Assembly: GCA_003116995.1 (NCBI GenBank)
Contig: BDSL01000046.1
Coordinates: 558,001-622,000, forward strand
Length of the DNA: 64,000 bases
Source of the DNA: Yamagishiella unicocca
Taxonomy: Eukaryota; Chlorophyta; Chlorophyceae; Chlamydomonadales; Volvocaceae
Reading direction: 5' to 3'
Below, piece by piece: positions 14,308 to 59,775 of this stretch. A model generated the notes under the pieces. It saw nothing but the letters and a program-made list of their open reading frames with translations, did no database searches and was not told the origin of the DNA. The translations under genes were made by a program, and so were the position numbers. Positions within the stretch are counted from its first letter, which is position 1, and each line of letters begins with the position of its first letter.

Positions 14308-17300
14308 TTTATAAATGCTGAGCTGAGCCGCGAAGGAGACGGAGCGCAAAGAGACCAAGAAAGGAGGCAAGGCGAGGCGTCAATAGTTACCGAAAGAAGC
14401 CCAGAGTGTGTCCACGAGCAGCCAAAATTCCGATTATGTAGACGCTGTCCGCGCAGCGCTCCGGTAACCAGAAGGACGGTGGCGGGCGGCTGAGCTCCAG
14501 TAGCGACCCAAACAACCGACGCCGCACTGCTGCGGCGTAGGCTTGGCGCGAAGCTCCGACAACGACTAAGCCTAAGTACCTAGTAACCTATCCTAGTGCG
14601 CAAAGCAGGGGTGTATGTAACAACTTCGCGTGCAATGCCAGTAACAGACAGAGTGCCCAGCACAGGAATCCCAGCCCATGCCAAATGCGAGGAAACTGAC
14701 CTGGGAAGGAGAGGAAGAAGGACCAGGCGAAGCAGCAGAAGGTTAGCGTTAGGTTGAAGAGCGAAGGAGACATGCGGGGCGGATGAAAAGGCAGGGACAC
14801 ACGTGAACGCGCCGCGGCTACGGAAAAGTGGTGTAGTAAGGCATTGTTAGTAAAAGAAATGAGGATAAACGTGAAGAAGTGGTATAAGTGCATGCAATGC
14901 AGCGTGCAGTACAGCGACCTGACGCTGTGTGATGCGGTGTGGTGCGGTAAGGTGCTGAATGATGCGGTGATGCGATGGGGCCGGCGGGCGGGCTCGCAGA
15001 GAGCACCCCACCACGCCGGGTGTCCCAAGTGGGTCGGCGCATAGATCCCACCGGGGGAAGGAGGGAGACGGGTGCATGCACATGCCGTGGGGGAGGTCGG
15101 CCAGGCGGTATCAGGGCGGGCGCAGCCGAGGCTTGCGGGTCCCGTGGTGAGTGTCATCTACCGCTGGGGGGTGCGTGTGTTGGTGGGCGGGCACTGGCAC
15201 GGTGGCGGGCGGGGAAGGGCCCGGTAATAGTAGTCGTAGTCATAGGAGTAGACGGTGACGTAGTAGACAAGTAGACGTAGTTGTAGTCGGAGACGTAGAT
15301 AGCAAGTAGACGTAGTAGTAGTCGGAGGCGTAGTAGGAGTCATAGTACTAAGGGGGTAGCAGGCGGGGCAAGGGGGGGGGTGCTAACCGGGGGGGCCCGC
15401 AGCCGGAAGCGGGGCCGACAGATGACGGACGGCGAGGCGGATCCGGACGGACAAGGCGATGTTGGGATGGCGGCGGTGCAGCCAGTAGGCGGTGGGGTGC
15501 CGGGCGCAAAGGTCATCACTGGCAGCGAGCAGGCGGTGTAGCGGGTAGCCGTTGGCAGCGAGGGCGAGTATGACACGCGCTACCTCCTGGACGAAATTGT
15601 CGACATCTAGGATGATGAACCGAAGGCGTTGAAACTGGCTCGTAAAGATGTTGCGCTTGGCTGCTTCGTTGACGTTGGACGACATGTGGACGAAGCGGCT
15701 GAGGCGGACACTCATGAAGGCGGGCTGCTCCCGCTTGTCATACAGCCGTGTGGTGAAGCGGCTGCACTGGCGGCCACCCACGGTGATGGGCTGGTGGACT
15801 AAGAGGATGTCAAGGAAGGGGAACTGGTCCGCGGGCAGGTGGGGGTGGTGTTGGGCCGGGATGTCAAGGACGTCGGGGTAGAGGCCATGCAAGCCCGAGG
15901 GGTGCTGATACGCCAGCGGCAAGAACTGGACGAGGAGGGGGTTGTTGAGGGCGGCGAGGTCGTCCAGAAAACGCTTGGTGAAGCGGAAGTGCTCGAGGAT
16001 AGCACGGCCCGCGGCGTCCACGTGGTGGTATTGCAGCAGGAATTGGTATTCGAACCAGCCCAGGAAGAGGTTAGCGATGAACGGAGCCGGTGGGATGCCC
16101 ATGGGGATGCCACAGACTTGTTGAACGAGGTACGCTCCGAAATGCACGAAGGCGGTGTCCAGGATGGTCCCGAAGAATGCGAGGAGGTCAGCGGAAGATA
16201 GATAGCGGATGGTGCTGTCGGCATGGGCCACCACGCGTTGGGCAGGTGCACGATCGCTCCAGAGGACTTGGTGGGAAGGCAGGGAGTGGTCGTCCCCGGG
16301 TGGTGCGGCTCTGGTAGTAATCTGGATGCTGCGAGCGCCCACGTGTTGATAGCAGGCCGTAGTCAAGGCGTGGAAGGTGTCCCGTAGCAGCTGGTGGGGG
16401 ATGTTGGTGTAGAGGCGAGTGAAGTCATGCATTTGGGGTGCCGTGAAGCCAGGGGAGTCGACGTCGAACTGCTGCGCATTGTACTGGTGAAGCATCTGGA
16501 TGACGTCAGCCGAGTTGAGGCAGAACCAGGGGGCGAAGCCATCGGGCAGGGTTGCACGCCAGAGGTCTTCGAACGTCTGGGAGAGCAGGGCGCAAACCTT
16601 GACGGCGAGGCGGCCGGTGAGGGAGGAGGGGCAGTTGTGGGAACAGCTGAGGAACCGCATCGTGCGGGGCGTCTTGTGCATCTTGACAGTGCCGCTGTAG
16701 TAGGCATCCGGGGCGTCGGGCGGGTAGACGAGGTCCAGGTGGGCGACGGCGGCATTGGCGGCGGCAAGGCCCGCATTGCGGTCAGCGATGGAGCGGGGTT
16801 GGTAGTATTGCGGATTGGAAGTGAGGTCGGCCATGACCGTGGCGGCGTAGAACTTGGGGCAGATGAGCTGGAAGGTGGCCGCACTCTTGTCCGTGACTGA
16901 GATGACGAAGGTGCGCTGGAGGTGGCCGAGCGTAGTCATATCGCCATCGGAGAGGATCATCCAGCGGAAGCCGTCGATGGGGGAGGCGATCAGGTGGTGC
17001 CGTAGGAGGTCGACGAACATGTTGGCCCAGTCGCTGAGAGCTCCAGGGGTCAGATGGGCGGCGGTTTCACGGGTGCGCGCATACCGGTGTGCAGCGGCCT
17101 GGACGGCCTCCAGCACGGCGGAACGGGGCGGGGACGGACGGTGGGCGCGGTAGCGAGCGCCGGCCCGCCAGAACCACAGGAGGCGGTCCGTTAGCACGGC
17201 GGTGGAGGGGTCCGTAGGGTTTTAGGGTTTTAGGGTTTTAGGGTTTTAGGGTTTTAGGGTTTTAGGGTCATGACGTGCGTCGAGCCCTGCGGGATCATAT

Positions 17301-19158
17301 CCGGGTGAGTGGGGCACGAACACGGCGCCGCCTGGATGCGGGCGAAGCGCTCCGGGGTTATATGGCGGGCGGTGGAGGCGGTGTTGGCGAAGAGGACGTA
17401 CAGCGGGTCACCTTTGGTCCAGTGGACGAGGGGGACGTCGGGGAGGCCGTCGGGGACGGTGGCGAGGAGCGCAGGGTGTCGAAGGAGGTGGCCGAGAGAG
17501 GGGCCGGGCAGCCACTGGCGGAGCGGGTGGGGCAACCAAAGCTTCTCCTTGAAGTTGGGTAGGGGCCGGCGGTGAGCAGTGGCGTCGGCGGTGAGGCTGG
17601 CGCTGAAGAGGCGGAGGAGGTCAGAGGCACAGGCGGCCGAAAGGCTGAGTACGTCGGGGGAGTAGAAGGTGAGGTGCGCATACAAGGCGTGGACCGTGCG
17701 GATGGCGAAGTTGAGCTCGGCGGCGGCGAGGGCGCCATGGGTCTGCTCCCAGCGGTGGCCGAGGAAGCGAAGTCGGCGGAGGGCGTCCCGGTAAGCATAG
17801 CGACGGCGGCGTAGGGCGGCGTGGGGAGGGAAGTCGGCTGACAGAGCAACGGCGGGATTGAAGGCAGCGGGGTCGGCAGCGATGAAGCGGACCTCAAACG
17901 CGGTGTTGAGGCCCCGGGGGTGGAGAGGCGGGCATGTACCGATCCGCTGAACCCATACCATCTCGCGAGCCTCCCCAATGGCGCGGAAGGTGTCGGCCGT
18001 GTAGGGGGCGGGCACGGTCTCGAGGGGGAGAATAACCAGGCTGTCCAGACCCTGAGCCCAAAGGTGACGGGTGAAGCGGGGGGCAGTGAGGCCGCGCGGT
18101 ATCTTGTACGTGGCGGCCCGAACATGAGTCTGCAGCCGGCCGAGGGAACTGAGCTGGGTGCTGCCGACGTAGCACCCAAGGTGGGGCGCGTCAAGGAAGA
18201 AGGCGACGTAGATGACATGGTGGTGGCGGAGCGGTTGGACGTGGAGCGCGGCGTGGGCCGCGGCTGACAGGAAGCGGGCGCGGGTGTTAAGCAGCGAGGT
18301 CACGAGAGCGTTGGGCGTGGGGTTGCTGGGGCTGAGGAGGCCGGATACACGGCGCACGAGCGGCGCCTGCGGCCCAAGGGCCTGATGAGTCCCGAGCCCG
18401 AGCGCCGCGTCGGTGACGCAGGCGTTGAGCTCCGCGGCCCGCTCGGCGAAGCCAGCGTGCTCCTGAAGTAACCTGTGGGCCATGCGAGTGCACCTAGCAC
18501 GCGCCTACGCTAAGCCCGCCGTGAGTCAAACCTGAGTGTCCAAGGAAGAAAACGATGACTGCGCTGAGCTGAACTGGGGGACGAGCGGCTTGGGAGACTC
18601 TAAATGTGAGGCTATGGGCTGAAATGGCTGATAGCTGTCCGCTGAGCGGGCTGAACTAACTCAGACCGCGCCCAGGAGCTGCCCCAGGGAAGCCCAAGTG
18701 CATAGTTGTGTGTTTTATAAATGCTGAGCTGAGCCGCGAAGGAGACGGAGCGCAAAGAGACCAAGAAAGGAGGCAAGGCGAGGCGTCAATAGTTACCGAA
18801 AGAAGCCCAGAGTGTGTCCACGAGCAGCCAAAATTCCGATTATGTAGACGCTGTCCGCGCAGCGCTCCGGTAACCAGAAGGACGGTGGCGGGCGGCTGAG
18901 CTCCAGTAGCGACCCAAACAACCGACGCCGCACTGCTGCGGCGTAGGCTTGGCGCGAAGCTCCGACAACGACTAAGCCTAAGTACCTAGTAACCTATCCT
19001 AGTGCGCAAAGCAGGGGTGTATGTAACAACTTCGCGTGCAATGCCAGTAACAGACAGAGTGCCCAGCACAGGAATCCCAGCCCATGCCAAATGCGAGGAA
19101 ACTGACCTGGGAAGGAGAGGAAGAAGGACCAGGCGAAGCAGCAGAAGGTTAGCGTTAG

Positions 19159-36407: not shown

Positions 36408-39400
36408 TCACGCCCTCAAGCCCGTAGATCCGGAGCTGCCCGTCAGCTGCTTCAGGCTCTCCAGCTGCTGGCGCAACAGCTTCACTAGGACCGACGCGCT
36501 GGGTCGCAGGTTCGGGTCCCCCGACCAGCAGCACATGGCGAGGTTCCTGCGTGAGCAATGGTAATGCCGGATTTCCCCCGGGGTGGACGGTGAGGCGCAC
36601 GTGAGCCAAAAGAACGCGCATGAGGACTAGTGCGGCAAAGCGGGTGCGTGGGGAACGCGACGTCAGCTGTGTCCCAAGCCACGTGTTAACAGCGCAGATG
36701 GAAAATGAGATGACAACAGGCATGTCGTACAGCAATGGGCATCTGCCGGCCGCATGGTACTGCGGACGTGAGCTGTACGGTGCCCGCCGCCTCCCGCAAC
36801 CCTGACACGCCAACCCACGGTTCTACGCTACCCCATATCCTAACACAACACCGGCCTGCCTGGCCGGCTGCTTGTGTGCGGCACCTACTTGTATGCCGCC
36901 AGCGTCGTGTCCGGGAAAGCAGGGCGCTTGCCGTGATACACGGCCTTCATCAGCGCCCGACTGCCGTACTCGTTGTCACTGTACGGCGTCTTGCCGGTCA
37001 TGAGCTCCCACATCAGCATGCCTAAGGGTGGGAGGGAGGCGGACGCGTCACCAGGGCCAGGTGTTTTAGGAAATGGCCCTGCTCCCGTCTTCCCAATATC
37101 ATCAGCTCGCATTGCTGCACGAGTGTTCGGCCGGGGGGGTGGGTTGTCAAGCAACGTTCGCGCGTCGCAGTGTCATGGGCGGCGACTCCTCTCACACGGA
37201 CAGCACCCGATTCGTGTACGGAGGCGACGCTGAGGTGACGCGCAACGCCACCTCCAGCAGGCGCCCGGCCCGCCGAGCTGATGCCGCCGATGATGGCACT
37301 GCGCGCTTCGCAGAGGCCGCCACCCCCGAGGCACGACCACCACCAGGTGGAGCTCGCGCCTAACAGCGACTGCCGGCACAGTGCGCAGCCGGCTAGGGGG
37401 AGAGCAGAACCGCTCGCCGGCACGCACCGAATGCGTAGATGTCGATGCTGGCGTCGACGGGCCTCCCCGCCACGAACAGCTCCGGAGCCATATACTGCAG
37501 CGTGCCGCAGGCCTCGTCCGGCAGCACCGCCGGCCGCCCGGGCAGCAGCCCATCCTTCAGGATTGCGGCGTAGCTGCACGACGACAGCGGCAGGCGCATG
37601 GGTGGCCGCGGATAAGGTCAAGGGAGGGGGCTTAGACTTGTATGCAAGCTTGGAATGCGGAGCCGGGACCAGACGCACATCGACATGGAGCTCCATCTTT
37701 ACGTGCATGGCGGTACTGCATGCGTGTGGTGTGGCTCCCCCAGCCGTCGCTCTTCCCGAATTCCCCTGGACCCGGCCCCACCCGAAGTCTCCGAGCTTGC
37801 ATACGAAGCCGCGCGGGTCTCTCGGGCTGGATCGCAGCAGCACGTTGCCCGGCTTGAGGTCGCAGTGCGCCAGCTTGGCGGTGTGCAAGTGGCGCAGAGC
37901 CAGAGCGATCTCCAGCAGGCACATGTACACGAACTGTGGGAGGGAGAGGGAGCGCGGGGGGGGAAGGAAGACAGCATCAGCGGACGAGTCCATGCCGGCA
38001 GGCAGCGACAGCACGTACGGCCCAAGGATACCCTTGCTACAGCGGCGGTGTTCCGCATCCTCCTACATGTGCCCGGCCCCCGGGGCCCCGGACGGACGTG
38101 GCCGCCCAGCAAGTTGACGCAGCCTCCTTCCCTCCCTTCAGCCCAGCACGCGAGGTGAGGTGTGCCCTTCCCCAACGCAGCGCACGCAGCGCACCTCCAT
38201 GTTGGACTTGCTGTCCGTGGCCGTGAAGGTGCCGCGCTTGAGCGCGTGGATGAGCGAGCCCTGCGAGGCGATGTGGGTGCGCGAGTCAGCCCCCGCACCA
38301 GACGACATAGCCGAAGAGCAGAGTAATAAACAATCGGAGGGCGTTTGAGACGCTCGCAACCGCCTCCTCCATCGCAGCACCGCACCGCAACAACACGCGG
38401 CTCACCCAACGCCCCTCCCTCTGGCCCAGTCCCTTCCGCTTGGCACCGAGCAACCCGAGCGCGATGCCCCACCCCCACCCCCGCCCTCCCACCCAAGCAC
38501 CCCACGTGCGCGCCTCCGCCCCACCCGGTCTCCAACCAGGCTTCCCGTGGGGTCGAAACACTCGGTTCCTCCGACACCCACCATATCACAATACTCCATG
38601 ACCAGCGCAGAGCACAGCGGCGGCGGCGGCGAGCCGGGCGGCGCCAGCGCCATGTACTCCGCCTGCCCCATCAGCCAGCAGCGATTGAGCGATGCGTCCT
38701 GCATGAGCACCACATTGACCCAGTGGCAGTACCCCTGCACGATGTTCGGGTGCGACAGCGATGACGTCACGCCCAGCTCCAGCGCGTTCCGCAGCAAGTC
38801 GCGCTGGCGCTTGGTCATCTGCGCCGCGGTCTTGGACAAGCTCCGCCGCGCTGGCGCGTTCTGCGAGCCTCCTTCCTTGGACGCTCCGTTCGGGCTGGCC
38901 TGATCCTTGGCGCTGCCGTTGGCGGGAGTGGTCTGCGGCGAGGCAGTAGCGCTGCCCTTGGCGGCGCTGGAGCCGGCGGCTTCGGCCGCCGCCGCCGCGA
39001 GCACCTCGGGCCCGGCGCTGGAGCCGTCGGGGTTGAGGTTGCCGGCGGGACCGTCCTCCGTGGCGATGGTGTCTGGGTCCGTGTCGTCCGGGTTTTCAAA
39101 CAGCTTGACGGCAACCTCCAGCCCGAGGTGCAGGTAGCCTTGGAACACGAGGCCGCTGCCGCCGCGCCCGAGTACCTTGCCCAGCTTGAGGACAGAGAGC
39201 TCCTCGGCCTCCTCAGCCCTGCAGCGCGAATGAAGCGGTGGCGGCCGCGGGGTAGGGGGCAGAGAGTAAACCGTTGAACCGGAGGAGGAGTGATCGGGGA
39301 CACAGGGGGCGCGTGTATGGAGAAAGCCGTGTATCCTCGAGCGTGGGTCGATGGGGTTATGTTGTTGGGCGCGAGGGGGCTGCGTGCCCAGCCATGGGGC

Positions 39401-42400
39401 GCGGGGAAGGTGGGATTGGCGAGGAGACCAGGTTAAGACCAGGTTACACGACATAGGAAAAGCGGAAAGTAGCCGGCAAAACGCTTCCGGACACGCGTTT
39501 GAGTGTGCATGCCGAGAACTTGGGTTACCTGTCGGGAAATGTGTGGATGCGGCCCGTCGACGGCGTGTTAGCGGAAAAGAAACAAACTAGTTTGCGTTAG
39601 CGTTTGGGGCGCATATGAGAGAGCTTGGAGACGCGGGAAGGGAGGCCCCAATGCGACAACCCCGCATGCGCCGGCACTGCGTAAAACATGTTTTACATCA
39701 ACGAGACCCCCCATGCAGGTCGGTTCCTACCCATGCCGCCGCTGCACACACACACCCTTGCGCCATCTCGACCACGCATCCCGTCGGCTCTGCTTGGCCC
39801 TTCGAAGCTTATCCCACCCCCTCCACAACCACCACATGTGAGGCCCACGCGGCTTTCCTAGCTACGCACCTGAAGGCCTGCAGCGCGTTGATCGTGTCCT
39901 TGAACGACGACACCAGCATGCCCATGTGCGTGCGTGTGTCACCAGCAAAGGCGCCACCCACTGCCGTGCTGAGAACCGTCGCCTGCGACTCCTGCAACGC
40001 CAGGACCCCGGGCGACAGCACCTTGCTGCCGCCTGCGACGTCCACGGAAGACACCAGCGTGTTACCCCCGCGCGGCGGGTCAACGAACGGCAGCGCGTCC
40101 GGCACGTGACTGGGCGATGCCGTCAGCCCTGCCGGCAGCTGAGGGTAGCGGCCACGAGGGCCGCCCTGCGCGTTCGCGCCCGCTGAAGCCGGCGCCGCGC
40201 CGGCGCCGTCGGCGGCAGCGGGCACCGCGGGGTCGTCGCTGGTCGCGCCGCTGCCGCAGGGGCTGCTGCCGCGCACGTCTGTGATGGTGCTCGCGCCAGG
40301 CTGCGACGCCATGGAGCCACTCGGGCCGTCCTTGCCGCCGATGCCGGCACCGAGGGCCGCGAGCGCGGAGCTGCTCATCCGCGCGTCGGGGCTGCCGGCG
40401 GCGGTCCCCGGCGGCGCCACGCTGCGTCCCGACGCGCACTTCCCCTGCAGCAGCGCCCACTCGTCCGCCAGGTTGCCGTGCATGAGCTTCTGCTGCAGCA
40501 GCGGCGCCAACACGCGCGACGCCAGCAGCTGTGCCTGCGACAGCAGCTCGTTCAGCAGCTCCATCGGCAGGCGCATGGCTATGGCCACGTAGAGCACCAG
40601 CTGAGTCGGCTCGCCCTCCTTGAGTGGCGCCGGAGCAATGACCAACGCATTCGGCGGGGCGCCTTGGCACGTGGACAGCAAGTACAGGTCGCGCTTGGGG
40701 CAGCCCACTTGCTGCATGTGTGACGCGCAGTCGTGCACAATGGTGCCGGTGGGTGGGAGGTTGGCCAGCAGGGTGTGGCGTAGTCCCAAGGCGCGAGCCT
40801 GCGGCGACGTGCAGTGCAGTGACGGGGCGAGGTGGGCGGGGGCGCGATTGGGGTCCGGGACCAGGATGGCCAGGAGGCGATACAGCGAGAAGAGGGGCAA
40901 ACCGGCAGGCAGGTAACCCGGAATGACGCCCTTCGCAGCTCGTCCGACACGCTGGCCCCAAGCTGGGTGGCGCCGCTCAGCGCACCCCCAAGGTGTGCAC
41001 TGCGGGCCCCTCCCGTCCCATCACCCCGCCACCCTGATATCACCGCCCGCCGCCCCCGCTCGCCCACCTGCACCAAGCCGGCCTGCCACAACAGTCCCCC
41101 CTGAGAGCCGTGGGGCGCCGCCGCGCTTTCTTGCGAGGAGGAGGCCGCCCCGTTGACCCGCTGCGCTGGGTGGCCCGTAGGCGCACCGGAGCTACTGCCG
41201 CAAGCCTTACTGCGTGGGGATGTCATGTTGGTCGGGTGCCCGCCGTTGGAAGCCCCCACGTTGCCTTGGGCCTCCATGGGCGTGTTGGACCTGTTTTCCC
41301 AAGGGCAGGCAGAATGGACGGAAGGAAAGCAAGGGGCTGCCAGTTGGGGTCGTGAGGTAGGGGGGGTGGGCGATCCGTGGGTTGTAAGGGAGGCAGTGCC
41401 CGTCGGAATGGTAAAATACGAGGGAGACGCAATGGCAAATGCTTGCCGCTCAGGCTAGGTGTCCCAGCCCTCGAGGCTGATAGCCGCTCCATGCCGGGCT
41501 GCCAGTCGGTGGGACGCCTCAAGGACGCGACTTGACCTCATCCGTCGCCGCTACCGTACACCCGCCTTCCCGGCCGCCTACCGTACCTTTGAAGACGAGA
41601 GCGGTTTAGGTGTGATTGGGCTTGAGCCATCCCAGAGCCAGAGCCGTAGGGCTCGCCCATGCTTAGCATGGACCGGGACCCATTCGTGCCCTGCGTGCTG
41701 CCGTCCGCCCGACTGCCGCTGCGCTCTTCGAAGAAGATGGCGCGCCCGCCCGTGCCGAAGGCGATGCCGCTGGTGCCAGCCGCGCCAGCAGTTGCCCCAG
41801 CAGCGCCTGTCCCGGGTGGCGCAGCCAGCATGGCCAGGTTGGCCGCCACCATCACGCGCGTCGTCAGCTGCAGCACCTGCTCCGTGCCCGCGGTAACCAC
41901 AGTCACGACCTGCTGCAAGTTCTGGGCCTCGTAGACACCAGCCAGGATCTCAGCGACCTGGGGGGTGGCATAAAAACGGGATACACATGGGTAGGATAAC
42001 TGGCGCAATGTCTTCGGAAACGGACCTGGGGAAGAGGGAATGAAGCGCGAAACCCGAGACGACGTCTGAAACTATTTAGTTAGTTGCGGAGGTGGTACTT
42101 TTGGGGTGATGGACCGATGGTTAAAACGGGATACACATGGGTAGGATAACTGGCGCAATGTCTTCGGAAACGGACCTGGGGAAGAGGGAATGAAGCGCGA
42201 AACCCGAGACGACGTCTGAAACTATTTAGTTAGTTGCGGAGGTGGTACTTTTGGGGTGATGGACCGATGGTTAAGATAGCACCGCTCGGAAGCCTAGCAT
42301 GGAGCTTCCATGGCGGGCGGGGAATGGATGTGTGTACGACCGCATAATGTGTCCTGAGCGGCAGTAGCTGACAGGCCCACGTCATACATACCCGTCTGAA

Positions 42401-52079: not shown

Positions 52080-55000
52080 ATGAACAAGGCGGATGTCGAG
52101 TCTGGGGGTCAACCGGCCGACTTGGGAACTTTCCCGGGTGCCGACGTGGCCTCGAAGATCGCTGCGGCCGTGGACAGCGCACCGTAAGTGCACAGCTGAG
52201 TGCCCAGAACCATAACAGTGCTGAATCATGGCAGTGTGTTGTGGCGCGCACGTAAGCTTGGCCGTGTCGGTATCCAAAACCGAATGCTTGCCGGTGCTTG
52301 CAGGGTGGTCGTATTCGGCAAGGAGCACTGCCCATTCTGTATCGAAGTCCGACGATTGTTTTTGGAGATTGGGGTTCAGGTAAGGCGGTGATTGGGCAAG
52401 CTGCCAACTGCCACTGGAGGCCGCGGCTAACGTCTGCACCATTGCTGCTCCAGACACTCGACTTCAATCTTGACACGATGGCGGACGGCAGCGAAGTTTG
52501 GAGCACGCTGAAGAAGCAGCACAGCCCACAGGCGACTGTTCCCTACGTGTTCGTAAACAAGGTGCGCACGCGTGTTGGAATCGCTTTTTAATAAAAGGGT
52601 TGCAAGTGTTACCGAAGTGTGCAGAAACGGGTGAGAGCTGAGTCACCGGCTTCCGAGCCGTCGCACCCGACATTACCCAGATGTGCGCGTCTCTCGACTC
52701 CTCGGATGGGCTCTCAGCATTGCGACGCAGTTCTTTTGGCACGCATGCGGCCCTCGTAGGTGATGATCGGCGGGTGCGACTCCACCAAGCGCCTGCAGGC
52801 GGATGGTGAGCTCAACAAGATGCTTGCCGCCGCTGGCGTGAAGGTTATCTTGTCGGCGCCTACCAACATCGGGCCTCGCCTAACCAGGTCGGTGATGTAC
52901 GGCTTCCACACCAACCGCTTTCGCCGGACCTGCTCAGGATCAGACCACACGTCGTTTGGGCATCCATTGGCAACCCAACCACTCAGTCGCATCGACCTTA
53001 CCGTGTGCACTCCTCTCCCGCACCCACACCCGCTCCAGGTGCGGCGTCCTGGAGAAGGGCCACCCGGCTGGCGGCACCTTGTTCCATTTTCCGGAGGTCG
53101 TCGACAACCGTGTTGTCCGCCTGAACGGATTCTGGGTGAGTCCTCCGGCATGAAGTAAGGGTTGTCCAAAAACCTTGCGGTATTTCACGCGCGACGCTCA
53201 TGAAGTTCAACGACATATAACCACCATTTTGGCCCGGTCCCCACGTCCCCGCGCCTCTGCAGACGTTCGTGATCTGTCTGCTGTGCGCCATCTTCTACAA
53301 GGAGCGGGCCGCGCACTGGGTGATGGGCGGCCTGATGATTGAGGTGGGTGAGACGATCTGTGGCATAGGCTCCTTCCACGGACCCTGATCCGCGGCGCTG
53401 CGAGCCCGAGCAGCTCGCCGAGTTGATGAGATGTGATGTTAAAAATTATAGACAATGGAATGAGTGATTTGTCGGTGTGCGCGGAAAGCTCTTCCCAGCG
53501 CATCCGTGTGTGGGTCGCGGCGACTGATGCCCGTCGTTTAACCGATTTTGCCGCGTAAATGACGAATGACTTCGAATGACAAAGACGCAAGGGCGTATGG
53601 AGAGCAGCATTTATATCCTGAAGCCAAGCACATATCCATAAGGGATTGGCCCATATTGGCCAGGGATTTGCCCAATCGCCGCAATGGCGTCTTCCAAGAC
53701 CTCGCCTGCTGCTGCTTCCCACCTCCAACCGCAGTACGTGGCGCGTCTGCTGGGTGGCAGCAATGCCTCTGCGCTGGGCTCCTTGTCGAGCGTCGTCACT
53801 GCGCTCGCCGACATGTTTGGATCCAAGCCCAACTTCGTGGGAGGTGAGACATGCCGTCGATTGATGCGTAAGAGACACGTCGCACCGCACGACATGCGCA
53901 CCGCACTGCCGTGCCCAAATGCGCGAGTTGGCTTGGTTGAGAGCAAGAAGCTCCGAGAACAGCAAGGAGCCACAACATAGTGAGTTTGCAGTGGGCTCCA
54001 AACTAAAAGGCAAAACCACCGGGCACATCGCCGGACATTGAAGGAGGCGAAAGGGACAGAAACCCGGCCGCACCGCACCAATGGCAAACCACCAAGACAC
54101 CAGTCAACAGTCCAGAGGCAGAAACAGCAGAGCCATCATCCAGGGGGAATGTGCACTGTAGGTTCCCCTGACGGAAACCGAGCACCAACACACCACGCAG
54201 ACCGGCAAACTTTGAACCAGTGGAGCGCCGCCACGATACAACCAGAACAACAGACCGCCTCTCATACCAGAAAAAGCAAACTCCAAGCAAGGCACGCCCA
54301 CCGGGGACGAGGAAAACACGAAGCAAGAGAACAACTCTGCCACCACACAGCAGCGGCTGATCACGAAGCAACACCTATGTCGCCTGGCCTCTCGCACACA
54401 AGGCGACCGGCAACCATCCGCAGAACGGGGTGCCGAGCCCCCACAGCGGCCCAACGGGGAAGCCCAAACGCCGCAAAACCCTGAAGAAGGGTCCAAAACT
54501 CCACTACCCCACGGCAGATGGCATGATCCGGGAGATGAATACAGCCCCTGACCTCTTCAAAGCAGTGGCCATAGCGTGTGGTGTACTGGCAAGGAAAAGG
54601 AGCGTGAAGCAACAGCACTTCATCGCTCTGTTGCACTCGGACTGTGTGCGACGGCCTTCGGGATTCTTGCCGCATTCTTGCCGCGGCTTGCTTTGCTACA
54701 GGAATCCTGTGCGTTGGTGCTGGTCAGCCATCGCTCATGACCGGATGTTGTGCTCGCGGTTTTTATGCAGGCCCTCCGAAGCAGTTCGCTACGCTGTGTG
54801 GTTCCATGTTCAGCACCCTGGCGTTCTTCTTCTTCCTTGTGTACAAGCACGAGTTCAAGGTATGGTAACGTGCCAGCGCAAGGCAAGGCCAACGGAGGCA
54901 CACATGATGTGCACATCCTAAGCAATCGTTTCTACGGCTGTTGGCCGGTACGGCGGTTAACATAGTGCGTCTGCGTTTGGCAATTCCTTGTGGACGGCAC

Positions 55001-58000
55001 TTCCAGTGCAACGTGAACGTCCAAAGTAGGTGGCGTCTAAATACACCGGTTTGCGGGCAGGCCCCGAACCTTATAGAACATGGGATGTACGAATATCGGA
55101 CATAAGCATAACAGACCGTTGCCTGTCTTAAACCCAGTTGAACATCCATAGGTACGTAGCGGGCCTTGCGTGTTACATCCAGCGTCCGGCAATATGTTGA
55201 GCCCCAGCTAAGAACGATTCGTGAGATGCGTCTTCCCCTACTCTGCTCAACACCACAGCTCATCTACGTCGGCCTGGCCTTCACTTGCGCCCTGGGTGCG
55301 GCGGCGCTGCTTGAGTGTGCGATCAATTTCTGCCTTGGCTGCTGGATGTTCGGTCTGATGATCCGCTTTGGCCTGGTCAACGACCGCGTGTATCAGACCT
55401 TCATCAACACGAAGGCTGAGGTACGTGACCAGAGGTTGTCGCCCACGGCTCAGTTGTAGTAGTGTTTGTATTGGTCCCCTATATCAAGCACCATACTTCG
55501 TGGGATTCTGTGATACAGGCTTATGACTTTCCATGGTCCTTTTAAGGGCATCGCAATTTGCATTTCCCCCCGCGTGGTGCATCTTCCGGGGCCTTACACG
55601 TCCAGGTAACTAACGCAAACATGCCAATGTGGCCTCGTGTGCTTCAACTCCCCGCCACGCCGCCAGACCGAGTACACGTACGACGAGATGAACAAGCGGC
55701 TGAATGAGGGCACACCTCAGGTCCTGGTAAAGCGCTTCAGCGACGACCACCCTCTGCTAGTGGACTACAAGTACAAGACCAAGACGGACGACATGACGCG
55801 AGAGGACTTCCACCCCATCAAGCACGTCAAGCTGACCCACTTTGTCATGCACCTCAGCTTCGTCGGGCTGGCGTGTGCCTGGAAGGCCGCGGACCCGTTG
55901 TCGATGGGCCTGAGCCTTCCCGCCGCGGTGTGGTACGCCATTGGCATCGCCAGCGCCATCTGCTACGGCATTGGCGTCGTGCTGTACGGGCTGAAGATGA
56001 TCATGTACCCGAAGAAGGTCTGCAAGGAGCTCGCGCATAACATCTACGGCAGCTGCTTTGCTCTTCCGTGGGTGAGTGGCGTCCGTGACAGGACGCATGT
56101 GTGTTCCCCGTTCCTTGCGCAGTGGTTTACCTGTTACAGTGGGGCCCTGGGCCGTGCGAGCTTCTTACCCGTGAAACGGTCACCTCGTCTTCTGCAGGTT
56201 GTCCTCATCTTGTTCGCTTACCTGGAGAACGAGCGCGATCCCGCCTTCGCTAAGGTCCTGTTCTGGATTGGCGCCCCCATATCGCTCCTGCTGTCAATCA
56301 TCTGGGTACGTTTAGCTGGCGTGCGTTTGCATTCAAGCTTGGGACTTGTCCGGTCCGTGTGGATTGGCGTCCCGCCATAGCATTGCTTCGCGCGCGTTTT
56401 CTGCACGCTTTGTGTGCGTCGGATTGCGTTGCATGATGAGCCCATGGCTTTGGAATAAACCGACACAGCGTAGCCCTTTGCGTATTCATACGTGTCTGGC
56501 GAGACCAACGCCCCATGCTTTTGATTAGCGCTAACATCCTGGTGCCCGGATGCCTGACATGCAGGTGGCTGGCTGGATTGCGCTCAAGAAGGTGGGGATG
56601 CGTCCACGGGAAGTCTAGGTGTCCGCCAGGGCGTCTGGTGCTCTGAACAGCTGTCTGTATGTTTGTATTCCATGCTCACGCGGGCCAGGCCATGCTCAGG
56701 CGGGCCGGGCCGTCTGCAGGCAATCTATGTCTGCTGAACCTCCTCGGTCGTTGGCCGAACCCCGACTCACAGGAGCTGGAGCATGTGAACGCGTCGTGGC
56801 TGATGATGCCAGTTGGCAACTTTGTGGCCGCCGCCGTTGGCCCCTTGCTCGACTCCGCTTACCGTGACGCGATGCAGCTGTGGTGAGACGCCGCTAGCCA
56901 TGCCTTGGTGCGCTTACGCGCCCGTTGCCAACGGCACGTCGCCTGACCATGTATCCATTGCACCTGCCCAGGTTTGCTTTCGCGCTCCTCTTCTGGATGG
57001 CGCTTTTCGTACTCACCTTGTACAAGTCGTTCGTCATGCCAGACTATGGTGCGTGTCGCCTTGCCGCGCGATTGTTATCCGCATTTACGCCATGCCTCAC
57101 CGAACATGTCCCAATTTGTGGGCACTGCGCTCATGACCCGCAAGGGTCTAACCGGAGTCGGCGTCGTCTGAACCGCAAGTCCGTTGATACGTTGGCCGCA
57201 GCGCTTTTTGCGTCTGCGTATATCCCATGCGCATCTATCTCCTCGCCACAACCAAACCACGGTGACCAGGATCCCGAGCTCCATCACGGTTTGCGCCGTT
57301 TCGCCTGACCGACTGACCACTTCGTCATGCCCGGTGCTCGACGGCCCCATCTGCGATCTTGCGTGTGCAGACGACCGCCTGCGCCCCATGCTCGCGGGCT
57401 GGGTGGCCGCCCCTGCCATCGGCGCCATCGCCTACATGTCCTGCTACGGTCCCGAGGCCTCCGCCATCACCGTCATGGTCAAACGCCTTGGATACGGCTT
57501 CAACGACTTCATCTTCATCAACATGTACTGGATGGCGATCGCCATTGCGCTGGTGCTCGCAGTCTGCTTCTGGAGGTACGCGTTAGGATCGGTGTTCGGG
57601 TGCATGGATGCCCCTTCAGATGCGGGAGGTCACCTGCTATCCGATAGCAGATCACGGCAGATCGTATAAAGCCATCGCTACCTTGCTATGCACATGACTT
57701 CAGCGCGTTGAACACGGTACCCACACTTCCCCGTTACCCAATGACAATCACCCGCACCCCGAAATACACACCCACAGGCCCTACTTCGGCCGCCTCCGCT
57801 TCGACATGTCGTACTGGGCTGCTGGCTTCCCCACCGCGGCCTTGTGCATGTGCTCCATCTACTACAACGTCCTCAAGCCGGGTGATTTGTCGGTGAGATT
57901 GCGCGTCCTGTTGCCTCACGATTGGCACTGCCCTTGGCTACCCAGCCCCGTCGGGTCTATCCAGGCCCGCCCTAACGATGGATGTGAACCCGCAGGAGGC

Positions 58001-59775
58001 CATCGCATACACGACCCTGTTCGTCACTAGCTGGATCCACTCCATCCTGCTGCTGCAGACCGTCGGCGGTATCCTGCGCCGCCAGGTGTGTGTTGCGCGC
58101 TGACTGCTTGCCGCGAGCCGCATGTCTGGAAGGACAGGATGCAGACCATGTTTTGGTAACTTTGTGTACCACAGTTTTTGCTTCCTAGTAGCTTCGCAGT
58201 ACTCGTCTCAATACACGGTCCACGTGTGTCCGCAGCCGCAGCTCCTTAACGAATCACGTGACAGTTTTTCCGTAGTGAGGCGATGCGCCCGATTGTTCTC
58301 CCTTCCTACGTTCTGGAGGCCGGGTACATCTTATGACGTATCGCTGCGCTGTCGACACTGGCCCGCAGGTGTTTGTCCCCGACTACAAGTGGGGCCCCCT
58401 GAGCTTCATGCGTCTGACGCACGAGGCATTGCGCGGCCTCCTGCCCAAGCTTCTCAGCGAGGCCAAGGACTGTGGCACCAGCGAGACGGTCCTGGCATCA
58501 CTGCGGTGAGCTGCGCTGCGTTGCCAGGGTGACCAGAGGGCTTGTCGGCGGGGAAGGCGCATGCGGCCTGCCTTGGTCTCTCGAGTGCGCTGACAGGGTT
58601 TGGAGTCGCAGTGACTGCTTGCGGAATTGCCGCGTTGGGTTAAATTCCAATCCCATCAGTTGGCATTTCACCCCGCTGCCCGTTGTAAATGTGCTTGCCT
58701 GTTTGCTTTGTTGCAGTGACACATGGGCAGCCATTTCGCTGGTGCATCTGGAGCATGGAAGGCACGAGGACACGGTCATCTTCAAAGCGTACAACGAGTT
58801 CTTCCCGAATGTGACGCACGAGGCCGACGTGCAGCACCGGGAGCTGGAGGAAGCAGAGCACAAGTGCGTTGTCAGGATATATTGGGTGGATATCCTATTC
58901 GACGGATCCGAATGCTTCCAGGATCCGAATTGTTTACACGTGCGGATGTTAGCGAAGTATGAGATTTGAGGCGAGCTGGTTTCTGAGCTGTATCGGTGTC
59001 AGTTTTGCTCGATCAATTCGGATTTTGCCTCCCTCTTAACCGCAGGGTAAGCCACCTGCTGGCCGCCGCTGGTGGCTCCGTGTCCGGTGCTGTCGCTGCC
59101 GAGATCACCGACGCGGTCGACCAGTACGCCTCGGCCATCTCCACACACCTGCGCTGGGAGGAGGACCACTTGCAGAACATGCCGCGAAAGTACATCCCGA
59201 TCGCGATGGCCAAGGAGATCGTCCGGGAGGTGAGCAGTCATTTTTCATCATCTGTGGCGATGTGCCCGATGGCTCTCCCATTTGGTCTGTGGAACCCCAC
59301 TGTAACCGTTCCAACAATCTGTGGGGTAGGACGGAGGGCAGGCACGCATCATGAATCCTACCCCACTTGCTGACCCTCCTGGTGGAAGTTCTTGGTCAGC
59401 CCGTCAGGTCAGGTGCGCGCGCTTGGCAGCCTGTTACTCATAACATGTATGCAGCTTACCTTATTGTACTGCCCACCTACTCCTATTTTGAACCCTGTCG
59501 CGCCCTTCCGTCACCACCATGCGCTTCAGTGCTGGGCCGCTACCCCCGCCGAGACCTGGCACACGCTGCTGCCAATCCTGGTCGAGTCGATGCCCATGCT
59601 GCACCAGCGCGTCCGCTTCCTCAAGACGCTGCTGTGGGCCATGCCGGAGCGCTGCCACCTGTTCGGCCTCATCCTGGCCAGAAGCACCGACGCCGTGAAC
59701 TGGCGCCGCATCTCCGCCGAGCTCCCCGAGATCATTCCGCGTGGCGTCAACATGCTGTGGGAGCGCTACTTCTAG
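52080..59775 (+). CDS. Glutaredoxin-DUF4395-SLAC1/TDT-hemerythrin fusion protein
   Basis: 21 exons, all phase-consistent: 52080-52183, 52304-52379, 52454-52561, 52760-52887, 53039-53135, 53263-53343, 53735-53843, 54771-54859, 55259-55420, 55667-56071, 56198-56305, 56565-56591, 56773-56882, 56972-57048, 57371-57575, 57778-57892, 57996-58085, 58369-58505, 58717-58863, 59046-59229, 59530-59775 (TAG); 934 residues. Residues 35-115 are a dithiol glutaredoxin (CPFC 44-47, TVP 88-90, GGCDS 100-104). About 155-318 match DUF4395, with four hydrophobic segments and FCLGC (288-292). About 345-697 resemble the SLAC1/TDT (TehA/Ssu1) anion-channel or exporter family, e.g. HVNASWLMMPVGNFVAAAVG. About 698-860 are a hemerythrin HHE domain: HLEHGRHE (753-760), H783/E787 and HLRWEEDH (826-833). 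Inferred role: redox- and iron/O2/NO-responsive membrane transport of an anion such as sulfite, nitrate, chloride or malate. Cellular membrane unknown; no obvious targeting peptide. Confidence 0.92.
54000..54560 (+). other. Compositionally odd A/C-rich island in an intron
   Basis: Within the 927-nt intron 53844-54770 the plus strand becomes strongly A/C-rich and T-poor from about 54000 to 54560, unlike neighbouring introns. A plus-strand frame (54038-54484) encodes a His/Gln/Thr-rich polypeptide without a recognised domain. It may be the remnant of a transposable element. Confidence 0.4.

Follow-up and report, generated by a model that had tools for sequence, protein, structure and literature searches.

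A glutaredoxin–DUF4395–SLAC1–hemerythrin fusion family in algae, a candidate anion channel with proposed thiol and di-iron inputs

A gene in the analysed window, a stretch of 64,000 nucleotides of Yamagishiella unicocca DNA, encodes a protein that joins a glutaredoxin, a DUF4395 membrane module, a SLAC1/TDT channel module and a hemerythrin module. This four-module architecture is that of a family and not a single-gene oddity of Y. unicocca: fusion relatives occur in other algae, and 15 of the 26 relatives, among them a complete MMETSP transcript, contain all four Pfam domains. We tentatively favour reading the product as a SLAC1/TehA-type anion channel with two cytosolic inputs, a glutaredoxin–DUF4395 thiol unit and a di-iron domain, and hold this to be a serious possibility rather than a probable one.

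The gene and its modules

The gene model contains 20 introns, all with GT-AG borders, and a coding length of 2,805 nt. Re-derivation of its exons, phases and length reproduced the single phase-consistent gene proposed in the initial annotation. An alternative acceptor of exon 13 at 56689, giving a product of 962 aa, was dropped for 56773; the relatives in alignment A1 lack the 28 added residues, and the length of 934 aa is therefore taken as right. The Pfam and NCBIfam scoring, the relative searches and alignment A1 were run with the 962-aa version, whose numbering is higher by 28 after residue 498. Conservation counts given here leave gaps aside.

Table 1 Features of the fusion gene (positions in the window)
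Feature	Position	Strand	Description
Whole gene	52080..59775	+	21 exons, 934 aa plus stop; full-length relatives
Glutaredoxin module	52304..52887	+	Exons 2-4; Pfam residues 36-98
CPFC active site	52329-52340	+	Within the glutaredoxin module
DUF4395 membrane module	53100..55366	+	Residues 160-300, exons 5-9; PF14340 81 bits
CLGC motif, C289 and C292	55331..55342	+	Both Cys in 27/27 family rows
SLAC1/TDT anion-channel module	55823..58034	+	Residues 371-680, exons 10-17; ten membrane helices
Pore-gate phenylalanine F646	57827..57829	+	Aligned to TehA F262 and SLAH3 F517
Hemerythrin HHE module	58399..59175	+	Residues 708-835, exons 18-20; PF01814 28.7 bits
C-terminal tail	59530..59772	+	Residues 854-934; fifth conserved part, no Pfam family

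Among the best 8,000 candidates scored, the nearest relative is from Gonium pectorale, and its 73% identity over 100% of the query argues that the fusion is more than chance. An artefactual model joining two or more adjacent genes is extremely improbable. The support for a single mRNA comes from relatives and not from Y. unicocca transcripts, but these relatives have full-length, unbroken frames on transcript-sized contigs: P0007 (944 aa) is an MMETSP transcript marked complete, and P0003 (947 aa, 67% identical) is unbroken on a contig of 3,747 bases, compared with 7.7 kb of genomic DNA in Y. unicocca. The two proteins thus answer, for the relatives though not for Y. unicocca itself, the concern that the modules might be carried by separate mRNAs. 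No second gene copy was seen among the best candidates scored in the own genome, where the full-length search gave 20 matches, all within this gene, and the PF03595 search led to one place.

All four modules named in the initial annotation score above the curated Pfam cut-offs and none was rejected by the domain search: SLAC1 with 103.1 bits (cut-off 27.9), DUF4395 with 81 (24.5), Glutaredoxin with 31.7 (22.9) and Hemerythrin with 28.7 (25.3), the last just 3.4 bits above its cut-off. At E 1, Pfam lists only these four families for the product, with no GST domain. Scores lie below the cut-offs for the NCBIfam TehA model NF008032 (52.2 bits, cut-off 342), the tdt subfamily model TIGR00816 (49.5, 237.25) and the GRX_euk equivalog TIGR02180 (59.6, 87.25).

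The glutaredoxin module shows the features of PF00462, namely the profile, the fold, the first active-site cysteine and the TVP and GG motifs. The second active-site position is cysteine in 14 of the 18 filled rows and serine in the other four (P0005, P0006, P0010 and P0023). The designation as a dithiol glutaredoxin thus holds for the Y. unicocca gene and fails for these relatives, and a dithiol cycle is therefore not required across the fusion family. The adjoining DUF4395 module has four predicted membrane helices, judged by hydropathy, charge pattern and the helices predicted for relatives. Its CLGC cysteines are conserved throughout the family, as had been claimed, and are also present in 14/14 rows of a second alignment, which comprises 13 stand-alone proteins and a diatom protein. 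In the fold search with the DUF4395-containing part, the listed rows were all taken up by glutaredoxin structures.

The channel module has the ten-helix fold of PF03595 and is predicted to conduct anions through a SLAC1/TehA fold. The position of F646 is occupied by phenylalanine in 26 of 27 family rows; the gate phenylalanines F450 of AtSLAC1 and F262 of TehA are equivalent (PMC10645844).

The hemerythrin module contains the full di-iron ligand set H-HxxxE-H-HxxxE, composed of H715, H756, E760, H783, H826 and E830. H715 is kept in 26 of 27 rows and each of the other five in 25 of 26, P0011 being the exception. In the Gonium relative, the corresponding region is modelled as four long helices (707-728, 734-769, 775-797 and 805-831). 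Iron binding by this module is predicted from sequence; compared with the PDB by sequence, the module gave no match at E 10, and the rows listed in the fold search belong to other domains. The C-terminal tail, with no Pfam match at E 0.1, contains 15 invariant columns in a six-sequence alignment and is helical in the Gonium model. It adds a fifth conserved part to the four-module description.

A candidate channel with proposed cytosolic inputs

In the favoured arrangement, four helices of DUF4395 and ten of the SLAC1 module would lie in the membrane, and the cytosolic side would carry the glutaredoxin, the loop joining DUF4395 to the channel, the hemerythrin domain and the tail. The charge pattern of the sequence fits this placement of the soluble parts; counting against the reading of sidedness, two adjacent channel loops carry nearly equal charge, 1.33 for the one taken as outside and 1.59 for the one taken as inside. 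The first input would be the glutathione redox state, which the glutaredoxin would sense and hand on to the CLGC cysteines of the adjoining DUF4395. The second would come from the di-iron site, whose iron content or oxidation state could signal O2, peroxide, NO or iron. A change in cytosolic oxygen, iron or thiol state would then probably lead to the release of anions, be it nitrate, chloride or an organic anion such as malate. The single reading frame, the module order and the conservation of the ligands, the cysteines and the gate phenylalanine rest on sequence or on a model. These features are consistent with control of the channel by thiol and di-iron state, and we infer the exchange between glutaredoxin and CLGC, an effect of either input on the gate and the nature of the transported anion.

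The di-iron ligands are common to this module and to BTS/HRZ and FBXL5 (motif in the available part of PMC12022348), which are ubiquitin-ligase proteins. The FBXL5 hemerythrin domain is described as unfolding at low iron, upon which the protein is degraded (available part of PMC6381054). By analogy, the fusion protein could be a constitutive anion or C4-dicarboxylate exporter whose extra domains set its stability or amount, as iron does for FBXL5. Mae1 raised malate export according to the accessible text of PMC6765260, whose authors assign it to the SLAC1 clade. This agrees with such an exporter, but the Pfam matches of the product include no degradation domain, and we consider this reading rather unlikely.

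Alternatively, an oxyanion such as nitrite, sulfite, tellurite or selenite could pass through the pore and be reduced or detoxified by glutaredoxin/GSH and the di-iron site. The names of TehA entries refer to tellurite resistance, SLAC channels are described as releasing nitrate and chloride (available part of PMC3509319), and the SLAC1 motif is reported in the yeast sulfite pump Ssu1 (accessible text of PMC6765260). In YtfE, too, one polypeptide carries both a hemerythrin-like domain and a conserved pair of cysteines, but YtfE is a soluble two-domain enzyme in which, according to the part of PMC9052748 available, the partner is ScdA_N (DUF542), and its cysteine pair sits in that different domain. 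Moreover, the NCBIfam scores for TehA and tdt fall well short of the required values. Coupled transport and chemistry is quite improbable, lower in our estimate than control of protein amount.

Distribution of the family and of DUF4395

The fusion family is divided into three well-supported groups, each containing four-domain proteins. The relative searches scored only the best 8,000 candidates (7,999 in one of them), ranked by words in common. Alignment A8 holds 46 of 51 proteins (without P0009, P0016, P0039, P0040 and P0048), and the DUF4395 tree 49 of 52, with P0016, P0039 and P0048 left out for having no match of 90 residues. Among viral contigs, 63 pattern matches included no relative.

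DUF4395 also occurs outside the fusion. Stand-alone proteins share the P-x-x-F-A and C-x-x-C motifs and, by eye, the four membrane helices, and differ in being only about 150 aa long. For four of the 13 included here, relatives sit in bacterial genomes, and all 13 are taken as bacterial on this ground. The diatom Seminavis robusta has a protein, P0035, with the same order of glutaredoxin and DUF4395 with CLGC; it differs in its length of 264 aa and has no channel or hemerythrin match. This was the only case of glutaredoxin–DUF4395 without the channel among the best 8,000 protein candidates scored. That this two-domain Seminavis form is derived by loss, as against ancestral, was not upheld (p-AU 0.173).

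The initial annotation had associated DUF4395 with thioredoxin-fold proteins in bacteria. This was not borne out in the neighbourhoods of its closest bacterial relatives, for which 80 loci were used out of 543 confirmed, from at least 588 matched. At these loci, no ORF matched the algal glutaredoxin, SLAC1, hemerythrin or tail profiles at E 1e-3. A coarse search for thioredoxin/glutaredoxin motifs picked up three ORFs, none of them convincing; the nearest was at a distance of 3.2 kb. On plasmids, neither the DUF4395 module nor the hemerythrin-tail part found a match as query. The DUF4395 module of a distant relative found one Tsukamurella DUF4395 (E 2e-3), with no glutaredoxin, SLAC1 or hemerythrin among the neighbours listed.

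Since DUF4395 occurs alone in bacteria, and with glutaredoxin only in Seminavis, it may have a role other than gating. The glutaredoxin–DUF4395 part could instead serve thiols or metal and owe its fusion with the channel to location alone, with glutathione keeping the di-iron site in a reduced or loaded state, or with a membrane thiol reaction of its own. Both occurrences agree with this, as does a plant hemerythrin-like di-iron centre that is reduced by glutathione, at a very slow rate in the accessible text of PMC12022348. The four-domain proteins in each of the three groups favour joint function instead, and we regard a mere service role as unlikely.

Relation to known proteins and possible significance

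The plant channels SLAC1, SLAH1 and SLAH3 show 17-21% identity to the algal channel among the matches listed and are controlled by phosphorylation, which opens SLAC1 by way of its cytosolic parts; to our knowledge, plant SLAC1/SLAH channels are without glutaredoxin, DUF4395 and hemerythrin. Haemophilus influenzae TehA, 314 residues long in the PDB entries, is a channel without further domains. The channel tree, built from 25 of the 27 family rows (without P0025 and P0026) with only two plant rows and without Mae1 or Ssu1, places the 25 fusion rows on one side with a support of 81/97, which is not strong. Holding the fusion rows together with the plant rows (p-AU 0.335) or with the bacterial TDT rows (p-AU 0.31) was rejected in neither case, and a sister relationship of the channel part to plant SLAC/SLAH was not upheld.

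If the favoured inputs do act on the pore, a single protein would tie the release of anions to the state of oxygen, iron and glutathione, and the fusion channel would use chemical inputs where plant SLAC1 uses phosphorylation. In its widest form, this reading would make the family an old eukaryotic anion-channel class, present in green algae and two further groups and directly opened or closed by glutathione redox and by di-iron sensing of oxygen or iron; DUF4395 would be a new membrane-edge CxGC thiol switch beside the pore, and the channel part would belong to the chlorophyte SLAC-like relatives sought by a 2012 survey. So extended, it is possible but doubtful. In its available part, that survey of SLAC ancestry reports only TDT groups nearer Mae1 in algae and leaves closer relatives of the SLAC ancestor in Chlorophyta still to be identified (PMC3509319), and the fusion family supplies chlorophyte SLAC-fold proteins relevant to it. 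The TDT proteins that the survey records for C. reinhardtii may be members of the fusion family.

In the literature searched, DUF4395 appeared in two of the papers listed, with a single mention in each, and no functional account was found; the fusion supplies both a partner and a pair of residues through which its function can be tested. Likewise, no description of the four-module architecture was found among the matches listed, in agreement with the initial annotation. Two described protein types have part of it. In GSTH proteins, one chain comprises a thioredoxin-fold domain, a hemerythrin domain and some 100 residues without annotation, with GST in place of glutaredoxin, and four moss GSTHs are nucleo-cytoplasmic, as described in the available part of PMC4138524. 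The algal TlpA selenoprotein is likewise thioredoxin-like with hemerythrin; compared by description only, it has no channel and no DUF4395 named in the accessible text of PMC7539508. Database entries for some members of the fusion family are already named after component domains, among them 'Glutaredoxin-C6' and 'tellurite resistance protein TehA-like permease/glutaredoxin/hemerythrin-like domain-containing'.

Domain organization and structure of the fusion gene

The four-domain fusion is real, conserved and unusual, and it is not categorically new because its channel, glutaredoxin (Grx) and hemerythrin parts are members of established families. The initial annotation had proposed that four modules are joined in one product, and our Pfam search places all four above their cut-offs. 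At E 1, Pfam returned nothing for the window protein beyond Glutaredoxin, DUF4395, SLAC1 and Hemerythrin, and by the criteria applied each named module is assigned to a known family. The protein scores below the NCBIfam thresholds for TehA, tdt and GRX_euk, and the names TehA and standard glutaredoxin are therefore unsuitable. At E 0.1, the C-terminal 81 residues have no match in Pfam. In this tail, six aligned family members share 15 invariant columns, and we count it as a fifth part of the fusion protein.

Features of the fusion gene, the window and the Y. unicocca genome
Feature	Position	Strand	Details
Fusion gene	52080-59775	+	21 exons, 20 GT-AG introns, 934 residues
Glutaredoxin	residues 36-98		Pfam, over cut-off
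DUF4395	residues 160-300		Pfam, over cut-off
SLAC1	residues 371-680 (934-aa numbering)		Pfam, over cut-off
Hemerythrin	residues 708-835		Pfam, over cut-off
Alternative exon 13 segment	56689-56772		in frame, no stop
Two long reading frames	15383-18504	-	no Pfam match
Open frame, 1,153 residues	30404-33865	-	FAST_1 (PF06743), 43.4 bits vs 27.4
Frame with a glycine-loop-like stretch	38402-39586	-	no Pfam match for this frame alone
Hemerythrin-like exon L105	contig C47, 84193-84408
Hemerythrin-like exon L104	contig C47, 94590-94775

The exon model and the product length claimed initially were reproduced with acceptor 56773 for exon 13, using the alignment of relatives as a guide. Acceptor 56689 was rejected: it yields 962 residues, with a 28-residue insert that is absent from all 21 relatives in alignment A1 and is gone when 56773 is used. 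As an alternative in-frame acceptor, it would add these residues to the channel part. The GC content is 0.841 at third codon positions of the fusion gene and 0.565 in its introns. Among the best candidates scored in the 133-Mb assembly, 20 matches to the whole protein were found, all within the fusion gene. A second copy in the genome is unlikely rather than excluded, because the genome search scores best candidates only. The same genome has two hemerythrin-like exons about 10 kb apart, and the family tail profile found nothing below E 0.5 in the surrounding sequence (about 3.2 kb each).

Occurrence of the fusion in relatives

Searches of 5.8 billion proteins yielded 26 distinct relatives, 15 of which carry all four domains in precomputed Pfam annotation. 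In the remaining 11, one or two domains are not annotated, which is partly explained by truncated sequences or scores slightly too low; hemerythrin in relative P0022 reaches 24.6 against a cut-off of 25.3. Organisms named as carriers are Gonium pectorale, Tetrabaena socialis, Chlamydomonas schloesseri, C. incerta, Edaphochlamys debaryana and Chlamydomonas sp. UWO 241 (two proteins). The two UWO 241 proteins, P0008 and P0009, are close fusion copies within one alga; P0009 carries extra inserted stretches, which may be gene-model errors.

The proposal of a single gene rather than separate mRNAs is borne out in the relatives. P0007 is a transcript from MMETSP flagged as complete, and P0003, P0010, P0014, P0023, P0024 and P0025 have long uninterrupted frames of 924 to 1,020 residues (longest contig 3.4 to 5.0 kb). 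Judged from these sequences, the fusion is one protein in the relatives, not a set of neighbouring genes. An unrooted tree of 27 proteins resolves three groups, each supported at 100/100, with four-domain proteins in every group and all named green algae within one.

Conserved residues, sidedness and a predicted mechanism

Conservation was counted over 27 rows. The pore-gate residue F646 is Phe in 26/27 (Leu in P0025). Among the predicted di-iron ligands, H715 is kept in 26/27 rows and H756, E760, H783, H826 and E830 each in 25/26, the exception always being P0011. This natural variant (1,090 aa) has lost four of the six ligands in both alignments, while the last two are apparently lost in the 27-row alignment and kept in A1. 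It also contains a second Grx inside the hemerythrin domain, 67% identical to its first.

In the Grx, C44 (18/18 rows) and C102 (22/22) are invariant, and C47 is Cys in 14/18 rows and Ser in P0005, P0006, P0010 and P0023. In DUF4395, C289 and C292 of the CLGC motif are present in 27/27 rows and C244 in 24/26. Each of the remaining 16 cysteine positions is Cys in 15 rows or fewer; the conserved thiols are therefore confined to Grx and DUF4395. This pattern suggests that the partner of the Grx would be the CLGC pair, not an intra-channel switch.

Membrane sidedness was assessed as mean K+R per loop, with helix ends set by hand from averaged hydropathy. In DUF4395, the loops taken as inside average 2.65 (ahead of helix 1) and 2.62 (joining helices 2 and 3); those taken as outside average 0.46 and 0.81. 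The linker between the two membrane parts reaches 11.15. In the channel, inside values are 4.04, 1.59, 3.19, 2.07 and, after the last helix, 2.74; outside values are 0.67, 1.33, 0.70, 0.68 and 0.74. The signal is weak at one loop pair because 1.59 (inside) and 1.33 (outside) are close. The pattern agrees with cytosolic termini, as described for SLAC-like channels in a figure legend of PMC3509319, and would place Grx, the CLGC edge, hemerythrin and the tail on one side.

The cytosolic places acting in plant SLAC1 control would here be occupied by the Grx-DUF4395 unit and the putative di-iron domain. According to passages of PMC12022348, plant BTS and BTSL2 have hemerythrin-like domains that share this ligand motif; these domains bind di-iron centres, are reactive towards O2 and peroxide, and are reduced very slowly by glutathione. 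From this arrangement and chemistry we tentatively predict an anion channel that takes two inputs, glutathione-thiol and di-iron, a reading to which we give somewhat less than even weight.

Comparison with known systems and other features

Among described fusions, two come closest. One is the hemerythrin GST class, whose members combine GST and hemerythrin with some 100 residues that lack annotation (passages of PMC4138524); the other is a TlpA selenoprotein of algae that includes a hemerythrin domain (a passage of PMC7539508). Passages of PMC9937507 report hemerythrin GSTs in three bryophytes and one lycophyte, and their absence from the examined angiosperms, K. nitens, C. reinhardtii and C. 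merolae. Among the papers listed by full-text searches, which cover few subscription papers, none describes the four-domain architecture; existing database entries name some family members by their domains.

Against solved structures, the family profile scores best with SLAH3 (116 bits; TehA 3m72, 104). We put little weight on this because the C. reinhardtii TDT proteins of a 2012 survey may belong to the fusion family, because Mae1 itself is placed in the SLAC1 family elsewhere (passages of PMC6765260), and because the channel tree, with two plant, one TehA and seven actinobacterial comparison rows, is compatible with more than one placement. Passages of that survey (PMC3509319) report two TDT groups in algae, both nearer to Mae1 than to SLAC, and state that closer relatives of the SLAC ancestor were yet to be identified in Chlorophyta.

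In the full-text literature searched, DUF4395 is named in two listed papers, a single time in each. Its cysteine pair shows no variation across 14 aligned rows, comprising 13 stand-alone proteins and one protein from the diatom Seminavis robusta, which has Grx-DUF4395 alone. The DUF4395 tree separates fusion-type sequences, fragments and Seminavis from the 13 stand-alone proteins (99/97). Close relatives of four of the stand-alone proteins are bacterial stand-alone genes of about 150 residues, whose hosts are mostly Actinomycetota and Chloroflexota; 11/12 such genomes have one match and 1/12 has two. Stand-alone DUF4395 is common among bacteria (at least 543 stretches). At 80 bacterial loci, the algal Grx, SLAC1, hemerythrin and tail profiles detected no neighbour. 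The widest ORF cluster there, with the gene itself and overlapping frames excluded, spans 10/80 loci at scattered distances.

Elsewhere in the window, the two long minus-strand frames resemble, by eye, the reverse transcriptase and a GIY-YIG part of a Penelope-like element. The frame with the glycine-loop-like stretch resembles a protein kinase by eye, and the FAST_1-containing frame perhaps encodes an organelle RNA-binding protein.
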